Below are positions 1-23,602 of a stretch of DNA of 23,602 nt, one piece after another. The position numbers and the translations under genes were made by a program. Under the pieces are notes generated by a model. It ran no database searches and was not told where the DNA came from. It saw only the letters and a list, made by a program, of their open reading frames with translations. Origin of the DNA: a virus; IMG/VR virus record IMGVR_UViG_3300041409_000161, positions 1-23,602 of that record, one strand, 5' to 3'. Within the stretch, counting starts at the first letter, position 1. Each line of letters starts with the position of its first letter.

Positions 1-40
1 TGTCTTTTCTCTCTCGGCCACACAGCGTCATGGGCGCCCG

Positions 41-1645
41 GTGACCGCCACCCGCACCCGCCGCGCCCTCGTGGGCAAAACCGTGCCCCGGATGTGGACC
101 CGTCCGAGGCGCAGATTGACCCCGAAGACGTCGCGCGGGTACGCGGCGATCGCGTTCGCCGAGATGCTCGGGATCTCGCTGTTTCCGTGGCAAAAGTGGC
201 TGTTGATCCACGCTCTCGAGCTGAACCCGGATGGTTCGTACCGGTTCCGGATCGTGATTGTGCTGGTTGGCCGGCAGAACGGGAAGACCACGGTTCTGCA
301 GGTGCTGACGCTGTGGCGGATGCTCGAGGATGGCGCACAGACGGTGGTCGGTACGTCGACGAACCTCGAGTACGCGCGGATCGCGTGGCAGGCGACGGTC
401 GATCTGGCCGAGGAGCGCGACCTGCGGCTTGCACATGAGCGGGCCGTAGAGGGCGGTTCTGAGGATCTTGAGGACGATCGGCTGCTCCTGCACTACCTGC
501 CCCCCGCAGATCGGTGGGTGCGGGAGGTGAAGCGCAACGCGGTGAACACGTCGCTGACGTTGCGGGTGCCGGGCGGGCATCGCCGGGGGCACGTGTACCG
601 GACGGCGTCGGCGTCGCGGACGGGCGGGCGGTCGCTGTCGGTGGATCTGGGGCTTGCGGATGAGCTGCGGGAGCACCGGGCGGCGGGTGCGCTGACCGGG
701 TGGGAGGCGTGGGACGCGCTGGACGGGGCGACGACGGCCCGGTTCAACGCGCAGATGTGGGGGCTGTCGAACGCCGGCGACTACGGCTCGATCGTCCTGA
801 ACCACTTCCGGGATCTCGGGACGGCGTTCATCGAGACTGGGGAGGGTGACGACACGCTCGGCATGTTCGAGTGGTCGGCCGAGGACGACTGCGACGTGAT
901 GGACCGTTCGCAGTGGGCTCAGGCGAACCCGGCGCTGGGGTACGGCACGATCACCGAGGCGACCTTGCTGAGCAAGTCGCGGCTGCCGGTGGCGTCGTTC
1001 CGGACCGAGCATCTGTGTCAGGGGGTGCCGACGCTCAAGGCGGCGATCGACTCGAACTCGTGGCACACCTCGGCGGACCGGCACGGCAATCTGGACGGTC
1101 TGCGCTCGAGGGTGGCGCTGTGCGTGGAGGTGTCGGAGGATCTCGAGCACGTGACGCTGATCGCGGCGGGGGTGACGGCGGACGGCCGGACCCGCGGCGA
1201 GGTGGTGGCTGCGTGGACGTCGGTTGAGGCGGCCCGCTCGAGCAGCCCGGGCGCCCCGTCGATGTATGACCTGATCCGCAAGATCCGGCCGCGGGTGATC
1301 GGCTGGTTCCCGGATGGCCCGGCGGCCGTGCTGGACGTCGAGCTGACCAAGGCGTACCCGGCGGACATGGGCAGGGTGCGGGGCCGGCGGCTGGTGGGCA
1401 GCGAGGTGCGGATCTTGTGCCAAGGGATGGCCGAGCAGGTGAAGGCCGGGCGGGTGCTGCACCCGGATGACCCGCTGGTGAACGCTCACGTTCTGGGCGC
1501 GTCGAAGAAGACCGTGGGTGACGGGTGGCGGTTCGTGCGTCGCGACGCCGGCCACGTCGATGCGGCGTACGCGTTCGCCGGGGCGGTCCATCTGGCCCGC
1601 CAGATCCCGAAGCGCCGTACACCACAGATCATCACGGCGGCATAA
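41..1645 (+). CDS. Terminase large subunit (TerL), probably 5'-incomplete in this window
   Basis: TerL is the ATPase-nuclease motor that packages DNA into the prohead. The ATPase half shows a Walker A motif VGRQNGKTT (residues ~76-84, K82), a Walker B-like LGLADELREH (D207/E208) and the SNAG coupling region (~243-246). The C-terminal RNase H-like nuclease half shows VEVSEDLEHV, a central WFPDG and HVDAAYAFAG near the end. The first nuclease acidic residue appears to be Glu where Asp is usual in the family. GTG at 41 is a weak start with no ribosome binding site, and the frame is open leftward to base 2. The real start is probably outside the left edge, possibly the ATG at 23550 if the molecule is circular; that would give about 565 aa. 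It is followed by a long inverted repeat and the portal gene. The family assignment is secure; the start is not. Confidence 0.93.
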   Translation: MTATRTRRALVGKTVPRMWTRPRRRLTPKTSRGYAAIAFAEMLGISLFPWQKWLLIHALELNPDGSYRFRIVIVLVGRQNGKTTVLQVLTLWRMLEDGAQTVVGTSTNLEYARIAWQATVDLAEERDLRLAHERAVEGGSEDLEDDRLLLHYLPPADRWVREVKRNAVNTSLTLRVPGGHRRGHVYRTASASRTGGRSLSVDLGLADELREHRAAGALTGWEAWDALDGATTARFNAQMWGLSNAGDYGSIVLNHFRDLGTAFIETGEGDDTLGMFEWSAEDDCDVMDRSQWAQANPALGYGTITEATLLSKSRLPVASFRTEHLCQGVPTLKAAIDSNSWHTSADRHGNLDGLRSRVALCVEVSEDLEHVTLIAAGVTADGRTRGEVVAAWTSVEAARSSSPGAPSMYDLIRKIRPRVIGWFPDGPAAVLDVELTKAYPADMGRVRGRRLVGSEVRILCQGMAEQVKAGRVLHPDDPLVNAHVLGASKKTVGDGWRFVRRDAGHVDAAYAFAGAVHLARQIPKRRTPQIITAA

Positions 1646-1660
1646 CGCAACACGCCGGAG

Positions 1661-1708
1661 ACGGCAAGATCTTCTGTTCGGTGCCCGGGAAACAGGAGAT
1701 CTTGCCGT
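1661..1708. repeat. 18-bp inverted repeat between TerL and portal
   Basis: The arms at 1661-1678 (ACGGCAAGATCTTCTGTT) and 1691-1708 match at 17 of 18 positions; the one mismatch is a G-U pair in RNA. The loop is 12 nt. This occupies most of the only sizeable gap in the structural operon. There is no T-tract, so it could be a U-less actinobacterial terminator or attenuator, an RNA-processing site, or a DNA-level binding site. The only good Shine-Dalgarno candidate near the portal gene (AGGAG at 1694-1698) lies inside the right arm. Confidence 0.85.
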
Positions 1709-1720
1709 ACCCTCCGCCTT

Positions 1721-2947
1721 GTGGGCATCTTCGGGAGGCGTCGCAAGCCGGTAGCCAGTCGTCGCTACACCTTGGACATCCCGCCGGAGATCTCCGGTCT
1801 GCTGAAGATGGCCGACATCTCGCCCCGGGTGTTCCGCCGTGAGGCGCTGCAGGTCCCCGCCGTACTGGCCGGTCGCAACCGGATCTGTACGACGCTGGCG
1901 ACGCTGCCGCTGAAGCTGCACGCGCCGGACCGCTCCGAGCGGCCGTGGCCGCTGTTCTCGCAGCCGGACCCGAACATGCCGCCCTCGGTCACGTGGGCGC
2001 TGACGTACGAGGATCTTCTGTTCGAGGGTGTCGCGTGGTGGCAAGTCATGGCGCGGGACTCCCTGGGCTGGCCGACCGAGGTCCGGCACGTGCCGGTCAC
2101 GTCGGTGTCCCCGCAGCCGTTCCCGTGGCGCGGCCCGGCCGACGTCGTCACGCCTGACCTGCAGATCCCGGAGAACCCGAACGGCGTGTACGTTGACGGC
2201 GCGTTCGTGCCCAACCGGGACATCATCCGGTTTGACTCGCCGAACCCGCCGTTGCTGGTGCACGCGGCCCGCGCGATCCGCACGTGCCTGCGGCTGGACG
2301 CGACCGCGGCCCGCTACGCCGATGAGCCGGTAGGTATCGGCTACTTCGAGTCCGTCGACGGCGCGGACCCGTTCGAGGACGAGGACGACCCAGACACCGC
2401 GGTGGCGTCGTTCCTGCACAAGTGGGGCGCGGCCCGCCGCAACAACGCGTGGGGCATGATCCCGCCGGGCGTGAAGCTCGGTCAGGGGATCGGGTTCTCG
2501 CCGCGTGACCTGCAGTTGGCCGACGCCCGCCAGCACGCGGTGCTGGAGATTGCCCGCGCGATGCTGATTGACCCGGAGGATCTGGGGGTCAGTACGACGT
2601 CGCGGACCTACAACAACCGTGAGGACCGGCTGCGTGACTTCCTCAACGTCACGCTCGGCGGCTACATCAGCGCGGTGCAGGACCGGCTGTCGATGAAGGA
2701 CGTGACCCCGCGCGGGTCCTATGCCCGGATCAAGCTCGACGGCTTCCTGCGCTCCGACGTCATGACCCGGCTGCAGGCGTACGCGCTCGGCCGGACGGTC
2801 GGTGTCTACGACGATGAGCGGATCGCCGAGCTCGAGGACATCCCGGACGCGGTCCCTGAGCCTGCCGTCGAGTCTGCCGCCACGACCGGGCCGACCGGCC
2901 TGGTCCCGAACCTCGAGGACCAACCGAAGGGCGGGCAGGTCGCATGA
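1721..2947 (+). CDS. Portal protein (HK97 gp3-like)
   Basis: The portal forms the dodecameric ring at the capsid vertex through which DNA enters and to which the connector binds. The 408-aa length, position directly after TerL, basic N-terminus MGIFGRRRKP, the region around AVLAGRNRICTTLATLPLKL and the C-terminal third containing ILIDPEDLGV-like and TSRTYNNREDRLRDFLN sequences fit HK97/lambda-like phage portals. The start is GTG at 1721, chosen because MGIF-plus-basic is a common portal beginning. However, no Shine-Dalgarno lies within 15 nt; AGGAG is about 22 nt upstream and buried in the inverted repeat. An in-frame ATG at 1808 is the alternative. The end overlaps the next gene by ATGA (2944-2947). 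The acidic C-terminal tail is variable in this family. Confidence 0.9.
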   Translation: MGIFGRRRKPVASRRYTLDIPPEISGLLKMADISPRVFRREALQVPAVLAGRNRICTTLATLPLKLHAPDRSERPWPLFSQPDPNMPPSVTWALTYEDLLFEGVAWWQVMARDSLGWPTEVRHVPVTSVSPQPFPWRGPADVVTPDLQIPENPNGVYVDGAFVPNRDIIRFDSPNPPLLVHAARAIRTCLRLDATAARYADEPVGIGYFESVDGADPFEDEDDPDTAVASFLHKWGAARRNNAWGMIPPGVKLGQGIGFSPRDLQLADARQHAVLEIARAMLIDPEDLGVSTTSRTYNNREDRLRDFLNVTLGGYISAVQDRLSMKDVTPRGSYARIKLDGFLRSDVMTRLQAYALGRTVGVYDDERIAELEDIPDAVPEPAVESAATTGPTGLVPNLEDQPKGGQVA

Positions 2948-4743
2948 CCACCACCGTTACCTCTGCCGTCGTACCGGCCGGTTTGAAGTTCAACCCGTCC
3001 ACCGATCCCGCGCGGCGCCGGCACCTGGTGCTGGCGATGCCCTGGGGTGCCGCCATCGATCCGCGGCACGTCGAGTCCGGCGGGCACGTCCTGCAGCGCG
3101 GCGACGTGCTCGTGGATCGTGAGCTCGCTCAGCAAGGGTTCGTGAACATCGACCACGAGCCGGGCTCGGTCGGGACCATCGTCGACGCGCTCGAGGACGA
3201 CATCGGCGTGTGGGCGATCGTCGATCTCACCGAAGAGGGCGAGCAGGCGTTCCTCGCCGGCAACGGTGACGTGTCCGCCGAGATCATCCAGCCCGGGCTT
3301 CGGTGGTACTTCACCGGCCTCGCGCTGATCAGCCCCAACGAGACTCCCGCTATCCCCGGATCGCGGGTGGTGTTCAACACCAAGCAGTACGCAACTTTCG
3401 CCGTACGGACCGAGGAGAACCAGATGAGCACCACAGCCCCCGAGGGAACGGGCACCCCGCCGGCGGCAGGTGCGCCGGCCGTCGACTTCCAGGCGTTCAC
3501 CACCAAGATGGCCGAGACGCTGGCCGACTCCCACACCAAGCTCGCTGAGGGCTTGACCAAGACCATGACCGACTCGATGACGGCCGCGTTCACGGCGTCG
3601 CTGCAGGCGCTGCCGAACCCGCAGGGGGAGCAGGGCCCCGGCGAGATCCGCGCCGCGCGCTTCCAGGTCACCCGCGAAGAGCCGGTGTACATGTTCAACG
3701 GCACCGGTAACTCGCTGGTGCGCGACGCCTGGTACTCGGCGCGTGAGCGCGACCACGACGCCACCGAGCGCATCCGCAAGTACCGCCTGCAGTCGGAGGA
3801 GGTCGCGAAGCTCGCCGCGCACCAGGTCGCCACGCAGGCGTTCGCCACGTCCACCACGGGCAACTCCGGGCAGATCATCCCGCCCGGGTACCGCCCGGAC
3901 CTGTACGTGCCGCAGCTGCAGCAGGGCCGGCCCCTGGTCAACATGTGCTCGCAGGGTGTCATCGCGAACGCGACCCCGTTCACGGTGCCGGTGTTCACCT
4001 CGATCACGGGCGGCGCACAGGATCACGTCGAGGGCAGCAACCCGACTGACGGGACCCTGGCGTTCGGGACCAAGACGGTCACGCCGGGCGCGATCGACGG
4101 CAAGCTGATCCTGACCCGCGAGATCGTCGACAGCTCGAACCCGGCGATCGACCAGATCGCGTTGGCCGCGATGCGCGAGTCCTACGCCCGGCAGACCGAG
4201 GGCAAGGTCTACACCCTGCTCAACGGCGCCAACGGTGCGGGCGGCGTCATCACGGCCGGCTTCGTGCCGTCCGGTGCGCAGGCGTCGACGTACGTCGGGT
4301 CGACCGGCACCCCGCCGGCCGCGATCGCCGGCATCCGCAAGGAGCTCGCGCGGTACCCGTTCAACCGGTTCGCGTTCCCGACCAAGGCCGCGATGGGTCA
4401 GCAGGCGGTTCAGTACGTCGCCGGCGCCGTCGACACCACCGGGCGCCCGATGTTCCCGTGGACCTTCGGTGGCCCGAACAACGCTGCCGGTATGGCTCAG
4501 CAGGACGGCTACCTGATCGACAACCTGGTGTTCCAGCCGGCGTGGTCGATCTCCGGTGTCGCCGCGGGTGACTCGCAGGTGATGATCCTCAACCAGATGG
4601 ACGCCTGGGTGTGGGAGTCGCCGCTGCTCACCTTCCGGTTCGAGGAGAAGTCGGGCCCGGCGCTGATCGAGCTGGCGCTATTCGGCTACTTCGGTACCCA
4701 CCTGCTCCGGCCGGTGGGCCTGTCGGGAATCCGGCTGACCTGA
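2944..4743 (+). CDS. Capsid maturation protease - major capsid protein fusion
   Basis: This is one 599-aa ORF containing two head functions normally split between genes. Residues ~1-155 resemble a prohead serine protease: NIDHEPGSVG (candidate catalytic His71), a strand pair typical of the fold, and GDVSAEI (candidate Ser111). Residues 161-599 are an HK97-fold capsid protein: a helical, scaffold-like delta region (~175-215, rich in MTDS/LAEGL-type heptads), then the shell domain from about 250 (GNSGQIIPPGY) to the C-terminus. In the HK97 pathway the protease removes the delta domain. A Shine-Dalgarno GAGGAG (3412-3417) sits 6 nt before an in-frame ATG at 3424, so free capsid protein may also be made. 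Protease-capsid fusions occur in some small actinophages. The gene begins in ATGA overlap with the portal. Confidence 0.9.
   Translation: MTTTVTSAVVPAGLKFNPSTDPARRRHLVLAMPWGAAIDPRHVESGGHVLQRGDVLVDRELAQQGFVNIDHEPGSVGTIVDALEDDIGVWAIVDLTEEGEQAFLAGNGDVSAEIIQPGLRWYFTGLALISPNETPAIPGSRVVFNTKQYATFAVRTEENQMSTTAPEGTGTPPAAGAPAVDFQAFTTKMAETLADSHTKLAEGLTKTMTDSMTAAFTASLQALPNPQGEQGPGEIRAARFQVTREEPVYMFNGTGNSLVRDAWYSARERDHDATERIRKYRLQSEEVAKLAAHQVATQAFATSTTGNSGQIIPPGYRPDLYVPQLQQGRPLVNMCSQGVIANATPFTVPVFTSITGGAQDHVEGSNPTDGTLAFGTKTVTPGAIDGKLILTREIVDSSNPAIDQIALAAMRESYARQTEGKVYTLLNGANGAGGVITAGFVPSGAQASTYVGSTGTPPAAIAGIRKELARYPFNRFAFPTKAAMGQQAVQYVAGAVDTTGRPMFPWTFGGPNNAAGMAQQDGYLIDNLVFQPAWSISGVAAGDSQVMILNQMDAWVWESPLLTFRFEEKSGPALIELALFGYFGTHLLRPVGLSGIRLT
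3424..4743 (+). CDS. Predicted stand-alone major capsid protein from internal in-frame start
   Basis: This is an alternative product of the fusion gene. ATG 3424 is residue 161 of the fusion and is preceded by GAGGAG at a 6-nt spacing, a better initiation context than many genes here have. It lies exactly at the junction between the protease-like and delta/capsid regions. The product would be 439 aa: MSTTAPEGTG..., a low-complexity linker, the delta-domain helices, then the HK97 fold. Making most capsid subunits from this start and a minority as protease fusion would give the low protease-to-capsid ratio that HK97-like heads need. The signal is visible in the sequence; its use is inferred. 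It could be a relic of two genes that fused. Confidence 0.6.
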   Translation: MSTTAPEGTGTPPAAGAPAVDFQAFTTKMAETLADSHTKLAEGLTKTMTDSMTAAFTASLQALPNPQGEQGPGEIRAARFQVTREEPVYMFNGTGNSLVRDAWYSARERDHDATERIRKYRLQSEEVAKLAAHQVATQAFATSTTGNSGQIIPPGYRPDLYVPQLQQGRPLVNMCSQGVIANATPFTVPVFTSITGGAQDHVEGSNPTDGTLAFGTKTVTPGAIDGKLILTREIVDSSNPAIDQIALAAMRESYARQTEGKVYTLLNGANGAGGVITAGFVPSGAQASTYVGSTGTPPAAIAGIRKELARYPFNRFAFPTKAAMGQQAVQYVAGAVDTTGRPMFPWTFGGPNNAAGMAQQDGYLIDNLVFQPAWSISGVAAGDSQVMILNQMDAWVWESPLLTFRFEEKSGPALIELALFGYFGTHLLRPVGLSGIRLT

Positions 4744-11999: not shown

Positions 12000-12701
12000 A
12001 TGCCCGGTCAAGATGCAGGCGACACGATCGTTGCCCCCGGCGACCCCAACGTGCAGCTGTTCTCCGGGTCGGGAACCTGGACCAAGCCGTCAGGGTTCCG
12101 CGGGATCATCGTCGAGTGCTACGGCTCCGGTGGTGGCGGCGGCGGCGCTGGCGCGGCGGCGGCCGGCCAGAACTCGAAGGGCGGCGGCGGCGGGTCCGGC
12201 AGCTACACGCGCAAGTTTCTGCGGGCCGATCAGCTGACGTTGGCGTCGTACTCGGTCACGGTGAACGCGGCCGGTGCCGGCGGGGTGGGCAACGCGAACG
12301 GCAACAGTGGCGGCACCGTGCAGTTCGGGTGGACCACGCCGGTCCTCGCGAACGGTGGCGGCGGCGGGATCTCGGCCGGCTCGAGCGCGGCGGCCGGGTT
12401 CGCCGCGGCCGGTGGCGGCGGCGGCAACCCCGGGTCGGGTGGTGACGTGCTCGCGGCCGGTAACACGGGCGGGCAGGGTCAGGGTTCGGGCACGCTCGGC
12501 AACGGCGGCATCGGGGCCAGCTCGCTGCTCGGTGGCGGCGGTCAGGGTACGACGTCGGCCGGTGTGGCTGCGGCGCTGGCCGGTGGTGCGGGCCGGGCGT
12601 ACGGCGCCGGTGGTGGCGGCGCCCTGTCGACGTCGACCGGTGCGGCTGCCAACGGCGGCGCCGGGTCAGTCGGGTGCTGCATCGTCAGCACGGTCTACTG
12701 A
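12000..12701 (+). CDS. Glycine-rich tail tip protein (adhesin-like)
   Basis: A 233-aa protein. A short strand-rich head (NVQLFSGSGTWTKPSGFRGI) is followed by long Gly-rich blocks of five to seven glycines alternating with Ala/Ser/Asn segments and short strands such as YSVTVNAAGAGG. The GTWTKP opening and Gly-rich body are common in phage tip proteins with a 'glycine-rich domain'; related tip adhesins fold as polyglycine-II sandwiches and bind receptors. GAGAGG (11987-11992) lies before ATG 12000. It is the last gene of the tail module, consistent with host recognition. Receptor binding is inferred. Confidence 0.7.
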   Translation: MPGQDAGDTIVAPGDPNVQLFSGSGTWTKPSGFRGIIVECYGSGGGGGGAGAAAAGQNSKGGGGGSGSYTRKFLRADQLTLASYSVTVNAAGAGGVGNANGNSGGTVQFGWTTPVLANGGGGGISAGSSAAAGFAAAGGGGGNPGSGGDVLAAGNTGGQGQGSGTLGNGGIGASSLLGGGGQGTTSAGVAAALAGGAGRAYGAGGGGALSTSTGAAANGGAGSVGCCIVSTVY

Positions 12702-12728: not shown

Positions 12729-13028
12729 GTGAGCGATCTACCGGCGATCATCGGGGCCTTGGGCCTGCTGATCGGTACCGTGTTCGGGGGGATCGCTGCC
12801 CTCGATCGGCGCCGAGACAGACTGAACGGCGATGCCTCGGCCGAGCTCGAGGACTACCAGCGGTGGCATCCTCGGATCGTGCGGGCGCTCACCCTGTGCC
12901 GTGCGGTCATCGCCGCGACGGACGGGGCGACCGAGCCGGACGCGGTGGCCGAGCTCGCGAAGTGGCCGCCCCCCGCACCACCACCGAAACATTCCCGAGT
13001 CGAGGTGTCCGCAGATGATCCGCGGTAG
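12729..13028 (+). CDS. Small single-TM protein, possibly lysis-associated
   Basis: A 99-aa protein. GTG 12729 has AAGGAG (12716-12721) at 7 nt. The N-terminal segment [22 protein letters not shown] forms one transmembrane helix, followed at once by a basic patch (DRRRDRL). A soluble helical part follows, then a proline-rich tail ([10 protein letters not shown]). A short N-terminal TM with a charged soluble tail in front of the lysis genes is compatible with a pinholin-like or lysis-regulating protein, but no family is recognised. The end overlaps the next gene by 14 nt. Confidence 0.6.
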
Positions 13029-13707
13029 GTGGGTTCCGGCGGTCGCGATCCTGGGTGTGCTGCTCGGCGCCGGCGGGTTGATCGTGACGACGGTGCAGAA
13101 GCAGACGGCCGAGGACGGGCAGGCGGCTACTGCTGTCGAGCTGGCTGATCTGGCGGCGAAGAACCAGGCGGCGTGCAAGCGGCTCGGGGTGGCGGCTGCG
13201 GAGAAGGCGCTGGGTGCGGGTGTGTGTCAGCAGACCAAGCAGATCGTTGAGCGTCCCGTCGAGGGTCCGCGGGGTGCGACCGGTGCGCGGGGTGTGATGG
13301 GGCCGACTGGTCCGGCGGGTCCGGCTGGGCCTGCGGGCCCGGCGGGTGCGCCTGGTCCGGTGGGGGTTGCCGGGAAACCTGGTCCGGCTGGGTCCTCGCC
13401 GGGGTGCCTGATCCTCGTCAGCCAGTGCCGTGGACCTCAGGGCCTCCCGGGCGCCGAGGGGCTTACAGGGCCACAGGGGCCCGCTGGTGCTACGGGAGCT
13501 ACCGGGCCGGAGGGCCCGACCGGCCCAAAAGGCTCGGACGGCCCGGCGGGACCGACCGGGCCATCGGGCCCGCAGGGTATCCCTGGGCCCGCTGGGCCAG
13601 CCTGCGAACCGGGCTCGACACTGCAGAAGCAGCACGTACTCACGACTGAGCAACCCGTCACCGGCGTGTGGATACTGGCGTGTGTGCTCGACGACCAGAA
13701 CCCATAG
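13015..13707 (+). CDS. Membrane-anchored collagen-like protein
   Basis: A 230-aa protein. Residues 7-26 ([20 protein letters not shown]) form a signal-anchor helix. A helical, Cys-containing stalk follows (~30-80), then two Gly-X-Y tracts: 84-127 and 139-197, both rich in [10 protein letters not shown] triplets. They are interrupted by a hydrophobic, two-Cys insert (GCLILVSQC). The C-terminus ([19 protein letters not shown]) is short and hydrophobic. Collagen tracts form trimeric rods; with an anchor, the protein would project from the host membrane or be carried on the virion. It lies between tail tip and endolysin, so lysis, surface modification or fibre roles are all possible. The start is ATG 13015 inside the preceding gene, with GAGGTG about 8 nt upstream. 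Confidence 0.7.
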
Positions 13708-21492: not shown

Positions 21493-21501
21493 ACGAGAAG
21501 C

Positions 21502-21558: not shown

Positions 21559-22065
21559 ATGCGCCAACTCACCAAGGGATGGGCATTCAAGGTGTACGGC
21601 GAACCCCAGCCCAAAGGTTCGATGAAGTGCATCGGCTCCCGCGGCTCCTCGAACCATCAGCTCATCGAAGACAACAAGGGCGCCGGCCCGTGGCGTGACC
21701 AGATCCGCACCATGGCCGCACAACCCTCAGTCGTAGGCGAGGGCGCGGCCGAACACCAAGCCGTCATGCTCGAAGTCACGTCGACGCTGCCCCGGCCGAA
21801 GACGCACTACGGCACCGGACGCAACGCACACGCAATCAAGGCGTCCGCGCCGAACTGGCCCACCAAGCACGGCACCGGCGACGTCGACAAGCTCGCCCGC
21901 CTGATCCTCGACGCCCTCGAGGACGCGCACGTGCTCACCAACGATGCGCAGGTCGTCGAGGTGCGCACCTACAAGTGCTACCCCGGCTCGACACCTGCTC
22001 TCGCACGCGGGTACGACGTGCTTGACCGGCCCGGCGTGGTTGTCCGCGTCCGTCCGGTCGACTGA
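21559..22065 (+). CDS. rusA: RusA-family Holliday junction resolvase
   Basis: A 168-aa protein that resolves branched DNA made during recombination or late replication. The family marks are present: an N-terminal strand with GEPQPKGSMK, a KASAPNWPTKHGTGDVDKL stretch with Asp108 and Asp110 and Lys103, RLILDALEDAHVLTNDAQVV with Asp129, and strands at the end. These are the catalytic acidic residues of RusA. AGGAGG at 21547-21552 precedes ATG 21559. It is slightly longer than E. coli RusA (120 aa). Codons shift to C-rich third positions from here to the right end. It overlaps the next gene by TGATG. Confidence 0.88.
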   Translation: MRQLTKGWAFKVYGEPQPKGSMKCIGSRGSSNHQLIEDNKGAGPWRDQIRTMAAQPSVVGEGAAEHQAVMLEVTSTLPRPKTHYGTGRNAHAIKASAPNWPTKHGTGDVDKLARLILDALEDAHVLTNDAQVVEVRTYKCYPGSTPALARGYDVLDRPGVVVRVRPVD

Positions 22066-22406
22066 TGGGATACCGGCTCGCCAACGTCGTGTCCGTCACC
22101 TGGGCGCACCTACCCGAACGCCAGTTCAAGGTGCTCAACCGGATGGCCCTCATGGCGCTGGACACCCCCAACAAACGCGGACAGCCCGCCTGCGTCTACT
22201 TCGGCGGCTGGGAGTCCCTGTCCATGGCCCTCGCCCGCGACGTACCCGACGAATCACCCGACCCCGAGACCACCCGGCGACGCAAGCAGCTCTGCGACGA
22301 GGCATCCAAGATCGTCGGGCAGTTGATCGCTGCGGGGGCGGTCAAGAAGCCATCCGACCGGGCCCGCAAAGGCCACCAACAGTCCTACGTCCTCACCGTT
22401 TCCTGA
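22065..22406 (+). CDS. Winged-helix-like DNA-binding protein, candidate replication initiator
   Basis: A 113-aa protein beginning in TGATG overlap with rusA. SVTWAHLPERQFKVLNRMAL (a helix with a typical replication-gene 'F-K-V-L-N-x-M-A' pattern), YFGGWESLSMALARDVPDES and DEASKIVGQLIAAGAVKK followed by QQSYVLTV suggest a winged helix: three helices and a C-terminal beta wing. This layout is common in phage and plasmid replication initiators. It is short, with no helicase-loading domain. Its last codons run into three copies of a 17-bp repeat (22405-22494), the classic arrangement of an initiator beside its iterons. The initiator role is inferred from fold and context. Confidence 0.6.
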   Translation: MGYRLANVVSVTWAHLPERQFKVLNRMALMALDTPNKRGQPACVYFGGWESLSMALARDVPDESPDPETTRRRKQLCDEASKIVGQLIAAGAVKKPSDRARKGHQQSYVLTVS

Positions 22407-22494
22407 CTGTACGAATTGACCAGTCAATAGCAGACGATTTGTACGCCACTGACTGTACGAATTGACCGCCACTGACTGGTCAATTCGTACAGTC
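22405..22494. repeat. Three 17-bp iteron-like repeats, last two forming a large inverted repeat
   Basis: GACTGTACGAATTGACC occurs without mismatch at 22405-22421 and 22451-22467 on the + strand and at 22478-22494 on the - strand. Copies 2 and 3 make a 17-bp perfect stem with a 10-nt loop (GCCACTGACT), and that decamer also precedes copy 2's core. Copy 1 contains ATTGAC-CA-GTCAAT, a smaller inverted repeat. The block is AT-richer than its surroundings. Confidence 0.9.
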
Positions 22495-22496
22495 CT

Positions 22497-22523
22497 AGGA
22501 GTATCAGGAGTATTAGGAATAAG
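22497..22523. repeat. 9-bp tandem repeats in an AT/purine-rich stretch
   Basis: AGGAGTATC, AGGAGTATT and AGGAATAAG follow one another with 9-bp period directly after the iteron block. Low GC for this genome and short direct repeats are features of DNA-unwinding elements. Confidence 0.65.
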
Positions 22524-22562
22524 GGGAGGACAACATCGTTCCGTAGCGCCCACCCACAGGTG

Positions 22563-22583
22563 TGATCCACACCCTGTGGACAA
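22563..22583. promoter_or_regulatory. Pair of convergent DnaA-box-like sites
   Basis: TGTGGACAA at 22575-22583 is, on the - strand, TTGTCCACA, the preferred Streptomyces DnaA box. TGATCCACA at 22563-22571 on the + strand is one mismatch from TTATCCACA. The two share a palindrome-like arrangement (TCCACACCCTGTGGA). They lie between the repeats and the next gene. Confidence 0.6.
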
Positions 22584-22605
22584 CCGATCTCAGGAGGATC
22601 GACCG

Positions 22606-22827
22606 ATGCCACACAACCACCCCCCGCTCTGCTGCTGCCAACTCCACCCCGACGACATCCGCCCCTACGACCTCAAGCCATACGAGTCCGGCCAGATCCA
22701 CCCCCTCACCCGCTGCCCTTCCTGCGTCGAACACGGCGACCTCGCACAACCCCAATGCTGGGAATGCCACGCCCTCGTCGGCCGGCCCCACACCGACTAC
22801 TGCTCAGAACAAGGCACGGTCCAGTGA
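22606..22827 (+). CDS. Cys/His-rich small protein
   Basis: A 73-aa protein. AGGAGG (22592-22597) lies 8 nt before ATG 22606. CCCQLHPDD, CPSCVEHGD, CWECHALVG and HTDYCSEQ give four to five Cys/His pairs (C-x2-C spacing twice), a likely two-zinc treble-clef or zinc-ribbon domain. No enzyme motif. It is the first gene after the origin-like region and overlaps the next gene by TGATG, so it may be the promoter-proximal gene of a new transcript. Function not recognised. Confidence 0.65.
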   Translation: MPHNHPPLCCCQLHPDDIRPYDLKPYESGQIHPLTRCPSCVEHGDLAQPQCWECHALVGRPHTDYCSEQGTVQ

Positions 22828-23264
22828 TGAGACTCGACTTCGGCGAGTACGACGTACCCGACTACCCCAACCCAGCCAACGACCTCGCGCTGTGGAACGC
22901 GTACTGCGCCGCCTGGAACCACTACTGGGATATCCGCGCGCTCTGTGCGCCCGAGGACTTCCCCGCGTCCAGGCAGCTCACCCAGCACGCCTACCCCGGA
23001 CAACCCGCACGCCAAGCCGAACACGTACCCCTGCGCTGCACCTGCACCTACTGGGCTGCCTACGGCCTCGTCTGGGAGATCAGCACCCGCCGCCCCGTCC
23101 AGCCAGACCGCACAGCCCACGCATCCGGCTTCACCATCGACCCCGCCTGTCCGCACCACGGACACCTCGCCCACACCCACCTCATCGAACGCATGTGGGA
23201 ATCGCCCTACCAGTACGGCCTACTCCGCGACCCATACGACCTCGACGACGACGAGCGCCGATGA
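22827..23264 (+). CDS. Unknown aromatic-rich protein
   Basis: A 145-aa protein, unrecognised. It starts in TGATG overlap. It is rich in Trp, Tyr, His and Pro: DLALWNAYCAAWNHYWDIRA, then RCTCTYWAAYGLVWEISTRR and CPHHGHLAHTHLIERMWESP. C-x-C and the CPHH/H/H cluster could bind metal. It ends with an acidic tail (DPYDLDDDERR) in ATGA overlap with the HNH gene, so it is co-translated with it. Confidence 0.6.
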   Translation: MRLDFGEYDVPDYPNPANDLALWNAYCAAWNHYWDIRALCAPEDFPASRQLTQHAYPGQPARQAEHVPLRCTCTYWAAYGLVWEISTRRPVQPDRTAHASGFTIDPACPHHGHLAHTHLIERMWESPYQYGLLRDPYDLDDDERR

Positions 23265-23524
23265 GCAAGGGCTGGGCAGGCGGATCAACCAGAGCATGGC
23301 GCTCACTGCGCGCCGCCGTACTGAAGCGCGACGGCGGCATGTGCACCATCAAGCTCGACGGCTGCCAGACCTACGCCAACCAAGTCCACCACCTCGACGG
23401 CGTGGGCGCAGGCAAGGTCACCAACCCCGACCGCCTCACCGCCGCCTGCTGGTCCTGCAACACCAAGCTCGGCGAACCAACACGCACCGACCCCGAACCC
23501 AACGCACCACGCACCAACTGGTGA
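23261..23524 (+). CDS. HNH endonuclease, packaging-associated type
   Basis: An 87-aa protein. WRSLRAAVLKRDGGMC leads the domain; C28/C35 and C63-x2-C66 form the structural zinc site, VHHLDG holds the catalytic His pair (H43/H44), and N55 and CNTKLGEP complete the H-N-H. It is short, with no extra DNA-binding domain. HNH enzymes of this size next to TerL are needed for cos-type DNA cutting in many HK97-like phages. It starts in ATGA overlap. Immediately downstream is the ORF at 23550 that may be the start of TerL. Confidence 0.85.
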   Translation: MSKGWAGGSTRAWRSLRAAVLKRDGGMCTIKLDGCQTYANQVHHLDGVGAGKVTNPDRLTAACWSCNTKLGEPTRTDPEPNAPRTNW

Positions 23525-23549: not shown

Positions 23550-23602
23550 ATGCAGATGTCACAGGCAGTCACCGTTTTTCCCCATGTCTCACCACCTGGA
23601 CA
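23550..23602 (+). CDS. 5' end of a gene cut by the window edge, probably the TerL N-terminus
   Basis: AAGGAGG (23536-23542) lies 7 nt before ATG 23550, the best start context at this end. It codes for MQMSQAVTVFPHVSPPG and continues out of the window. The last two bases (CA) plus base 1 (T) complete a codon, and the reading frame then passes without a stop into the TerL frame at 41. If the molecule is circular, this is the true TerL start. If not, it is a separate partial gene such as a small terminase. Confidence 0.6.
   Translation, partial: MQMSQAVTVFPHVSPPG

Follow-up and report, generated by a model that had tools for sequence, protein, structure and literature searches.

How small actinophages without a polymerase or helicase of their own start replication is largely unmapped, and the locus described here offers a candidate origin with its putative initiator. 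The window, that is, the whole stretch of DNA that was analysed, is 23,602 bp in length and falls into the 'linear' class of IMG/VR records. The best reading of the phage is a small tailed phage of roughly 23.6 kb and of actinobacterial type. Its host is likely an actinobacterium because of the G+C content, the related annotated phages and the DnaA box. The large terminase (41-1645) comes first, followed by genes for the portal, capsid and tail and then by an early module: an exonuclease, RecT, RusA, a winged-helix (wHTH) protein of 113 aa (22065-22406), two small genes and, last, an HNH gene. The original prediction described a genome without visible polymerase or helicase; indeed, none of the early genes scanned was recognised as a polymerase, helicase, primase or helicase loader.

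The contig ends of the window are homologous to those of L128 (a contig of the identical phage), L129, L130 and L208, which suggests that these are true genome termini and that the complete genome is about 22-24 kb. The window is likely complete and near full length because its ends match the ends of the relatives. The left ends (window 1-60, compared with the ends of L128, L129, L130 and L208) read CTGTnTTTTC, and at the right ends (window 23560-23602) the sequence CGTTTTTCCC is located 30-32 bp from the end in two contigs. The relatives differ in other parts of the genome. The large terminase (41-4743 region compared) is about 74% identical to that of L129 and L130 and only about 26% to that of L208; the portal and capsid proteins are similarly distant from L208, and the tail and early genes match it at roughly 40-70%. 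Judged from these identities, the head genes appear to be the product of modular exchange. A glycine-rich tail-fibre-like protein (12000-12701) is followed by an ORF with a long collagen-like Gly-X-Y stretch (12832-13707).

The region 22405-22583 together with the gene 22065-22406 is probably a phage replication origin with its initiator, to which we assign a probability of about 0.82. The features of the locus are:

21559-22065, + strand: RusA-like Holliday junction resolvase, immediately 5' of the wHTH gene (PF05866, E 5.6e-8; phrog_140, E 3.9e-18)
22065-22406, + strand: putative replication initiator, a 113-aa stand-alone winged-helix protein (from homologues and an AlphaFold model)
22405-22421, + strand: iteron 1, dyad centre 22415, overlapping the stop codon of the wHTH gene
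22433-22446, - strand: iteron 2, degenerate, dyad centre 22438, core GTACAAATCG at 22435-22444
22451-22467, + strand: iteron 3, dyad centre 22461
22478-22494, - strand: iteron 4, dyad centre 22484
22494-22535, + strand: putative unwinding element, a purine-leaning AT-rich tract starting CCTAGGAGTA (from AT content and a conserved step)
22563-22571, + strand: DnaA-box-like site TGATCCACA, 8/9 match
22575-22583, - strand: perfect DnaA box TTGTCCACA, 9/9 match, immediately 5' of the ribosome site that serves the next gene

The 17-bp repeat GACTGTACGAATTGACC is present in three perfect copies (iterons 1, 3 and 4). No further match with up to three mismatches was found in the 23.6 kb, and only 0.02 such matches would be expected by chance in the whole window. 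Chance does not account for the repeats. The original prediction placed three perfect repeats directly downstream of the winged-helix gene. All three were confirmed, the first of them overlapping the stop codon; however, a fourth, degenerate copy had been overlooked, and it was revealed between the first two by comparison with the relatives. Four near-palindromic sites are therefore located within 90 bp after the wHTH gene, alternating in orientation, with the centres of their imperfect dyads exactly 23, 23 and 23 bp apart. A matrix built from the L208 and L210 sites alone ranked the four window sites 1, 4, 5 and 6 of 47,186 positions, and iteron 2 was the top-ranked position. In the central registers the 90-bp segment outscored all 2,220 other intervals; the site register was chosen after the genome comparison, and the result holds over neighbouring registers. 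The converse test was weaker, with the sites of the relatives ranking 3-79. When viral contigs were searched for a 14-mer from the repeat, the matches were scattered and unrelated, and about as frequent as chance predicts.

Next to the array, the predicted AT/purine-rich stretch was found with its three 9-bp units TAGGAGTAT, CAGGAGTAT and TAGGAATAA at 22496-22522, and the two predicted DnaA-box-like sites are present in convergent orientation. AT content over 40 bp is highest, within the whole contig, in the segments starting at 22482-22483. Its maximum is at the tract in L210 as well, and in L208 and the L222 locus the tract shares the highest value. The perfect box TTGTCCACA is the only perfect TTRTCCACA in the window, and this sequence is a high-affinity DnaA box in Streptomyces coelicolor and M. 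tuberculosis (PMC4285127). Perfect boxes number three in L208 (two at the locus) and two in L210 (both at the locus). The second perfect box in these two genomes, TTATCCACA, is inside the wHTH gene (L208 11098-11110; L210 6290-6302), about 196 bp upstream of the first box, and is absent in the window and L222. The segment 22496-22522 can also be read as a series of nine triplets whose middle letter is A; all other runs of this kind in the window are shorter. The DnaA-trio basal unwinding system is characterized by at least three (.A.) trios no more than 16 bp from a DnaA box (PMC8287927). Membership in this system is not claimed because the nine trios lie outside this limit, 40-52 bp from the DnaA boxes, and abut the iterons instead.

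Three relatives with a short wHTH protein were compared with the window: L208 (22,389 bp), found via RecT; L210 (21,916 bp), found via a two-sequence wHTH alignment; and L222, found via an exonuclease alignment. Their proteins share 37-67% sequence identity with the window protein (L208 38%, E 3e-23; L210 39%; L222 67%). All four genomes have the wHTH gene and sites that start at or just before its stop codon. In L222 the array, again with a 23-bp period, consists of four direct repeats; three sites, spaced 23 and 25 bp, are present in L208 and in L210. In all four genomes, a CCTAGGA/CCTAAGA tract follows exactly 10 bp after the centre of the last dyad. A perfect DnaA box (TGTGGAYAA) is located downstream of the last iteron, just before the ribosome site of the next gene, at 91 bp in the window, 95 bp in L222, 86 bp in L208 and 85 bp in L210. 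The letters of the sites themselves diverge, being GTACGAATTG in the window, CCACGAATTG/CCACGAATCG in L222 and CTACGAATCG/CTACAGATCG in L210. Relatives that keep the gene and replace the repeats with unrelated sequence would have spoken against an origin. This is not the case: in the relatives with the gene, the sites can still be recognised despite their divergence, and their period, the 10-bp distance to the AT-rich tract and the DnaA box are all preserved. The short type is known from only three lineages, because L208 and L210 are close relatives. A small Cys-rich protein is encoded just 3' of the putative origin in the window (22606-22827), L208 (11322-11612) and L210 (6515-6805); the C-terminus C..C....GRPHT..C is common to all three, and the N-terminal halves differ.

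A turn of the cumulative GC skew at this locus had been proposed as a check, and the result is mixed. The turning point is at 21500 in the window, 21200 in the L208 genome and 20800 in the L210 genome. It is near the locus in L208 and L210, but 1 kb upstream of it in the window; moreover, it is a maximum in all three, opposite to the minimum expected at bacterial origins. The genes on both sides of the turn are on the same strand in these genomes.

The wHTH gene itself starts within the stop codon of RusA (TGATG). Its AlphaFold model (pLDDT 79.9, pTM 0.75) has a helix-strand-HTH-wing topology, and the winged-helix DNA-binding domain, a feature of initiators at lambda-O-type origins, is assigned by this predicted topology only. 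No direct match of the window protein was found in Pfam, PHROG or NCBIfam. Foldseek with the model returned generic wHTH proteins only (MarR, Orc and plasmid initiators), none below E 0.001, and the PDB searches were not discriminating. Searches with the protein alone against viral, genome, phage and plasmid collections gave nothing useful, and tblastn in plasmids gave no match.

There are also longer wHTH homologues. L253 and L261 were both found at E ~3e-12 with a three-sequence profile, and L265 at E 1.6e-6 with a six-sequence profile that excluded L265. In all of them, the gene itself contains direct repeats, which directly follow the wHTH part: L253 has six copies of 22 nt, L261 has three, and L265 has four CGTACGACGG sites, spaced 23, 22 and 22 bp. 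Behind each in-gene array comes a purine-rich stretch, ranking first or second among the 50-nt windows of its own locus. In lambda O, the iterons are likewise within the gene after the DNA-binding domain and are followed by an AT-rich tract (PMC7466680); the arrays of the three long homologues have this lambda-O-like layout. A perfect DnaA box was found just upstream of the gene in L261, and none was found in the L253 and L265 loci. L261 also matches two PHROG families, phrog_270 (E 4e-4; 'replication initiation protein') and phrog_391 (E 0.0095; 'O-like'); the link of the window protein to phrog_270 runs via this one distant homologue, at a modest E-value. In Arthrobacter phage Abidatro, a phrog_270 initiator (gp45, 2e-44) is encoded immediately behind the RusA gene. 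This wHTH initiator directly follows RusA in a RecE-RecT-RusA cluster, as in the window; however, gp45 has 264 aa with a C-terminal part, compared with 113 aa, and BLASTP between the two proteins gave nothing significant.

The best reading of these comparisons is an iteron origin whose lambda-O-like initiator has kept no more than the DNA-binding domain. The initiator-dependent origin layout of the original prediction gains support from the conserved array, the AT tract, the DnaA box and the lambda-O-like homologues. The window shares with the lambdoid O/ori-lambda system a DNA-binding-domain initiator and four to six iterons next to an AT-rich tract (PMC7466680): the array has a 23-bp period, and the AT-richest 40 bp are adjacent. 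There are also differences from lambda. The window protein ends after the wHTH, and the C-terminal helicase-loader-binding domain is absent. The iterons begin at the stop codon, whereas the long homologues L253, L261 and L265 keep lambda-like iterons inside the gene. The window also has near-palindromic iterons that alternate in orientation at a spacing of 23 bp, with a perfect DnaA box downstream of them, and no gene for a P-like loader was recognised.

Other known systems can be compared as well. Iteron plasmids of the RepE/RepA type (PMC4980987) also have iterons, an AT-rich unwinding region and a DnaA box beside the initiator gene, and a DnaA box and an AT-rich region are indeed beside the iterons in the window. 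Compared with those plasmids, the window protein is far smaller and has no detectable match to a Rep family (no Pfam match), and its sites alternate. In the Streptomyces plasmid pWTY27 (PMC3583192), the initiator acts on a discontinuous inverted repeat of about 105 bp made of opposed repeats; this is a likeness, although the window protein and repeats differ from its repA and iterons. The RepA-type mycobacteriophage prophages (PMC7157519) are also comparable, as their initiator is encoded by an actinophage and is sufficient for autonomous replication. However, that RepA is a protein of 320-350 aa, and repeats, unlike in the window, were not identified at those origins.

A mechanism can be proposed on this basis. 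The 113-aa wHTH protein would bind the four near-palindromic iterons on the same face of the DNA, their 23-bp spacing corresponding to about two helical turns, and form a nucleoprotein complex. The complex would then open the adjacent AT/purine-rich tract. Host DnaA at the perfect box, which lies 91 bp beyond the last iteron, might assist in loading the helicase of the host. DnaA is the probable route by which the host replisome is recruited, because the box is conserved in the members with the short protein, the C-terminal domain is missing, and no helicase, loader or primase was recognisable. This DnaA step is the least certain part of the mechanism. More tentatively still, a lambda-O-like initiator may have been cut to a bare wHTH, with the in-gene origin moved past the stop codon and the conserved host DnaA box taking over helicase recruitment from the lost C-terminal half; we consider this history possible but somewhat short of an even chance. 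In the loci compared, all four with the short protein have a perfect box at a fixed place, and of those with a long protein L253 and L265 have none and L261 has one just upstream of its gene.

The serious rival to a replication origin is a transcriptional role, in which the wHTH protein would be a late activator or repressor and the sites would be operators for the operon 22606-23524 and, once the genome is circular, for the terminase and late genes. In some phages, late regulators are encoded between RusA and HNH/terminase, and the wHTH gene is located there. The generic wHTH fold, like that of MarR proteins, and the position of the sites upstream of the next gene also fit a regulator. We regard this explanation as unlikely, since no sigma-70-like promoter was found in this region, L222 or L210, and conservation of the sites extends to the AT/purine tract and the perfect DnaA box. 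Moreover, sites inside the longer homologues' own gene suit an origin better than an operator, and one homologue (L261) matches an initiation family.

A structural role is much less probable. The alternating orientation of the sites creates a 90-nt palindrome that is predicted to fold very stably (-52.5 kcal/mol, z -6.65) and could be an RNA or DNA hairpin acting as a transcription terminator or as a single-strand structure. The terminator alternative had also been raised originally, but it fares poorly: the fold is no better than expected in L208 (z -1.34) and only mild in L210 (z -2.66), and L222 has direct repeats in place of the palindrome. The site has no T-tract and no terminator call, and does not qualify as an intrinsic terminator. 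The giant hairpin is an incidental by-product of the alternating sites. Rfam matches in the palindrome were rejected as sub-threshold microRNA models triggered by the near-perfect hairpin.

A packaging (cos/pac) site, the other alternative originally offered, is more improbable again: an HNH gene is located 0.7 kb downstream and HNH genes are common near cos sites, but the homologous contig ends place the likely cos at the termini, about 1 kb from the locus. There is equally little to recommend a parS-like centromere array for the partition of an extrachromosomal prophage, which would explain repeats beside a small DNA-binding protein and resembles the repeat arrays of mycobacteriophage parABS prophages (PMC7157519), as no ParA-type ATPase was recognised among the window genes scanned, the DnaA box and AT tract are conserved, and the longer homologues show the lambda-O layout.

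The locus is a compact, testable candidate origin of about 540 bp (22065-22605) with a putative cognate initiator of 113 aa. Its relatives form a natural series in which the protein and the sites have diverged together, which suits specificity-swap experiments. A possible use is as a minimal replicon for actinobacterial vectors. If the reading as an origin is true, the locus would also suggest a way for a phage initiator to lose its helicase-loading half, through reliance on host DnaA.
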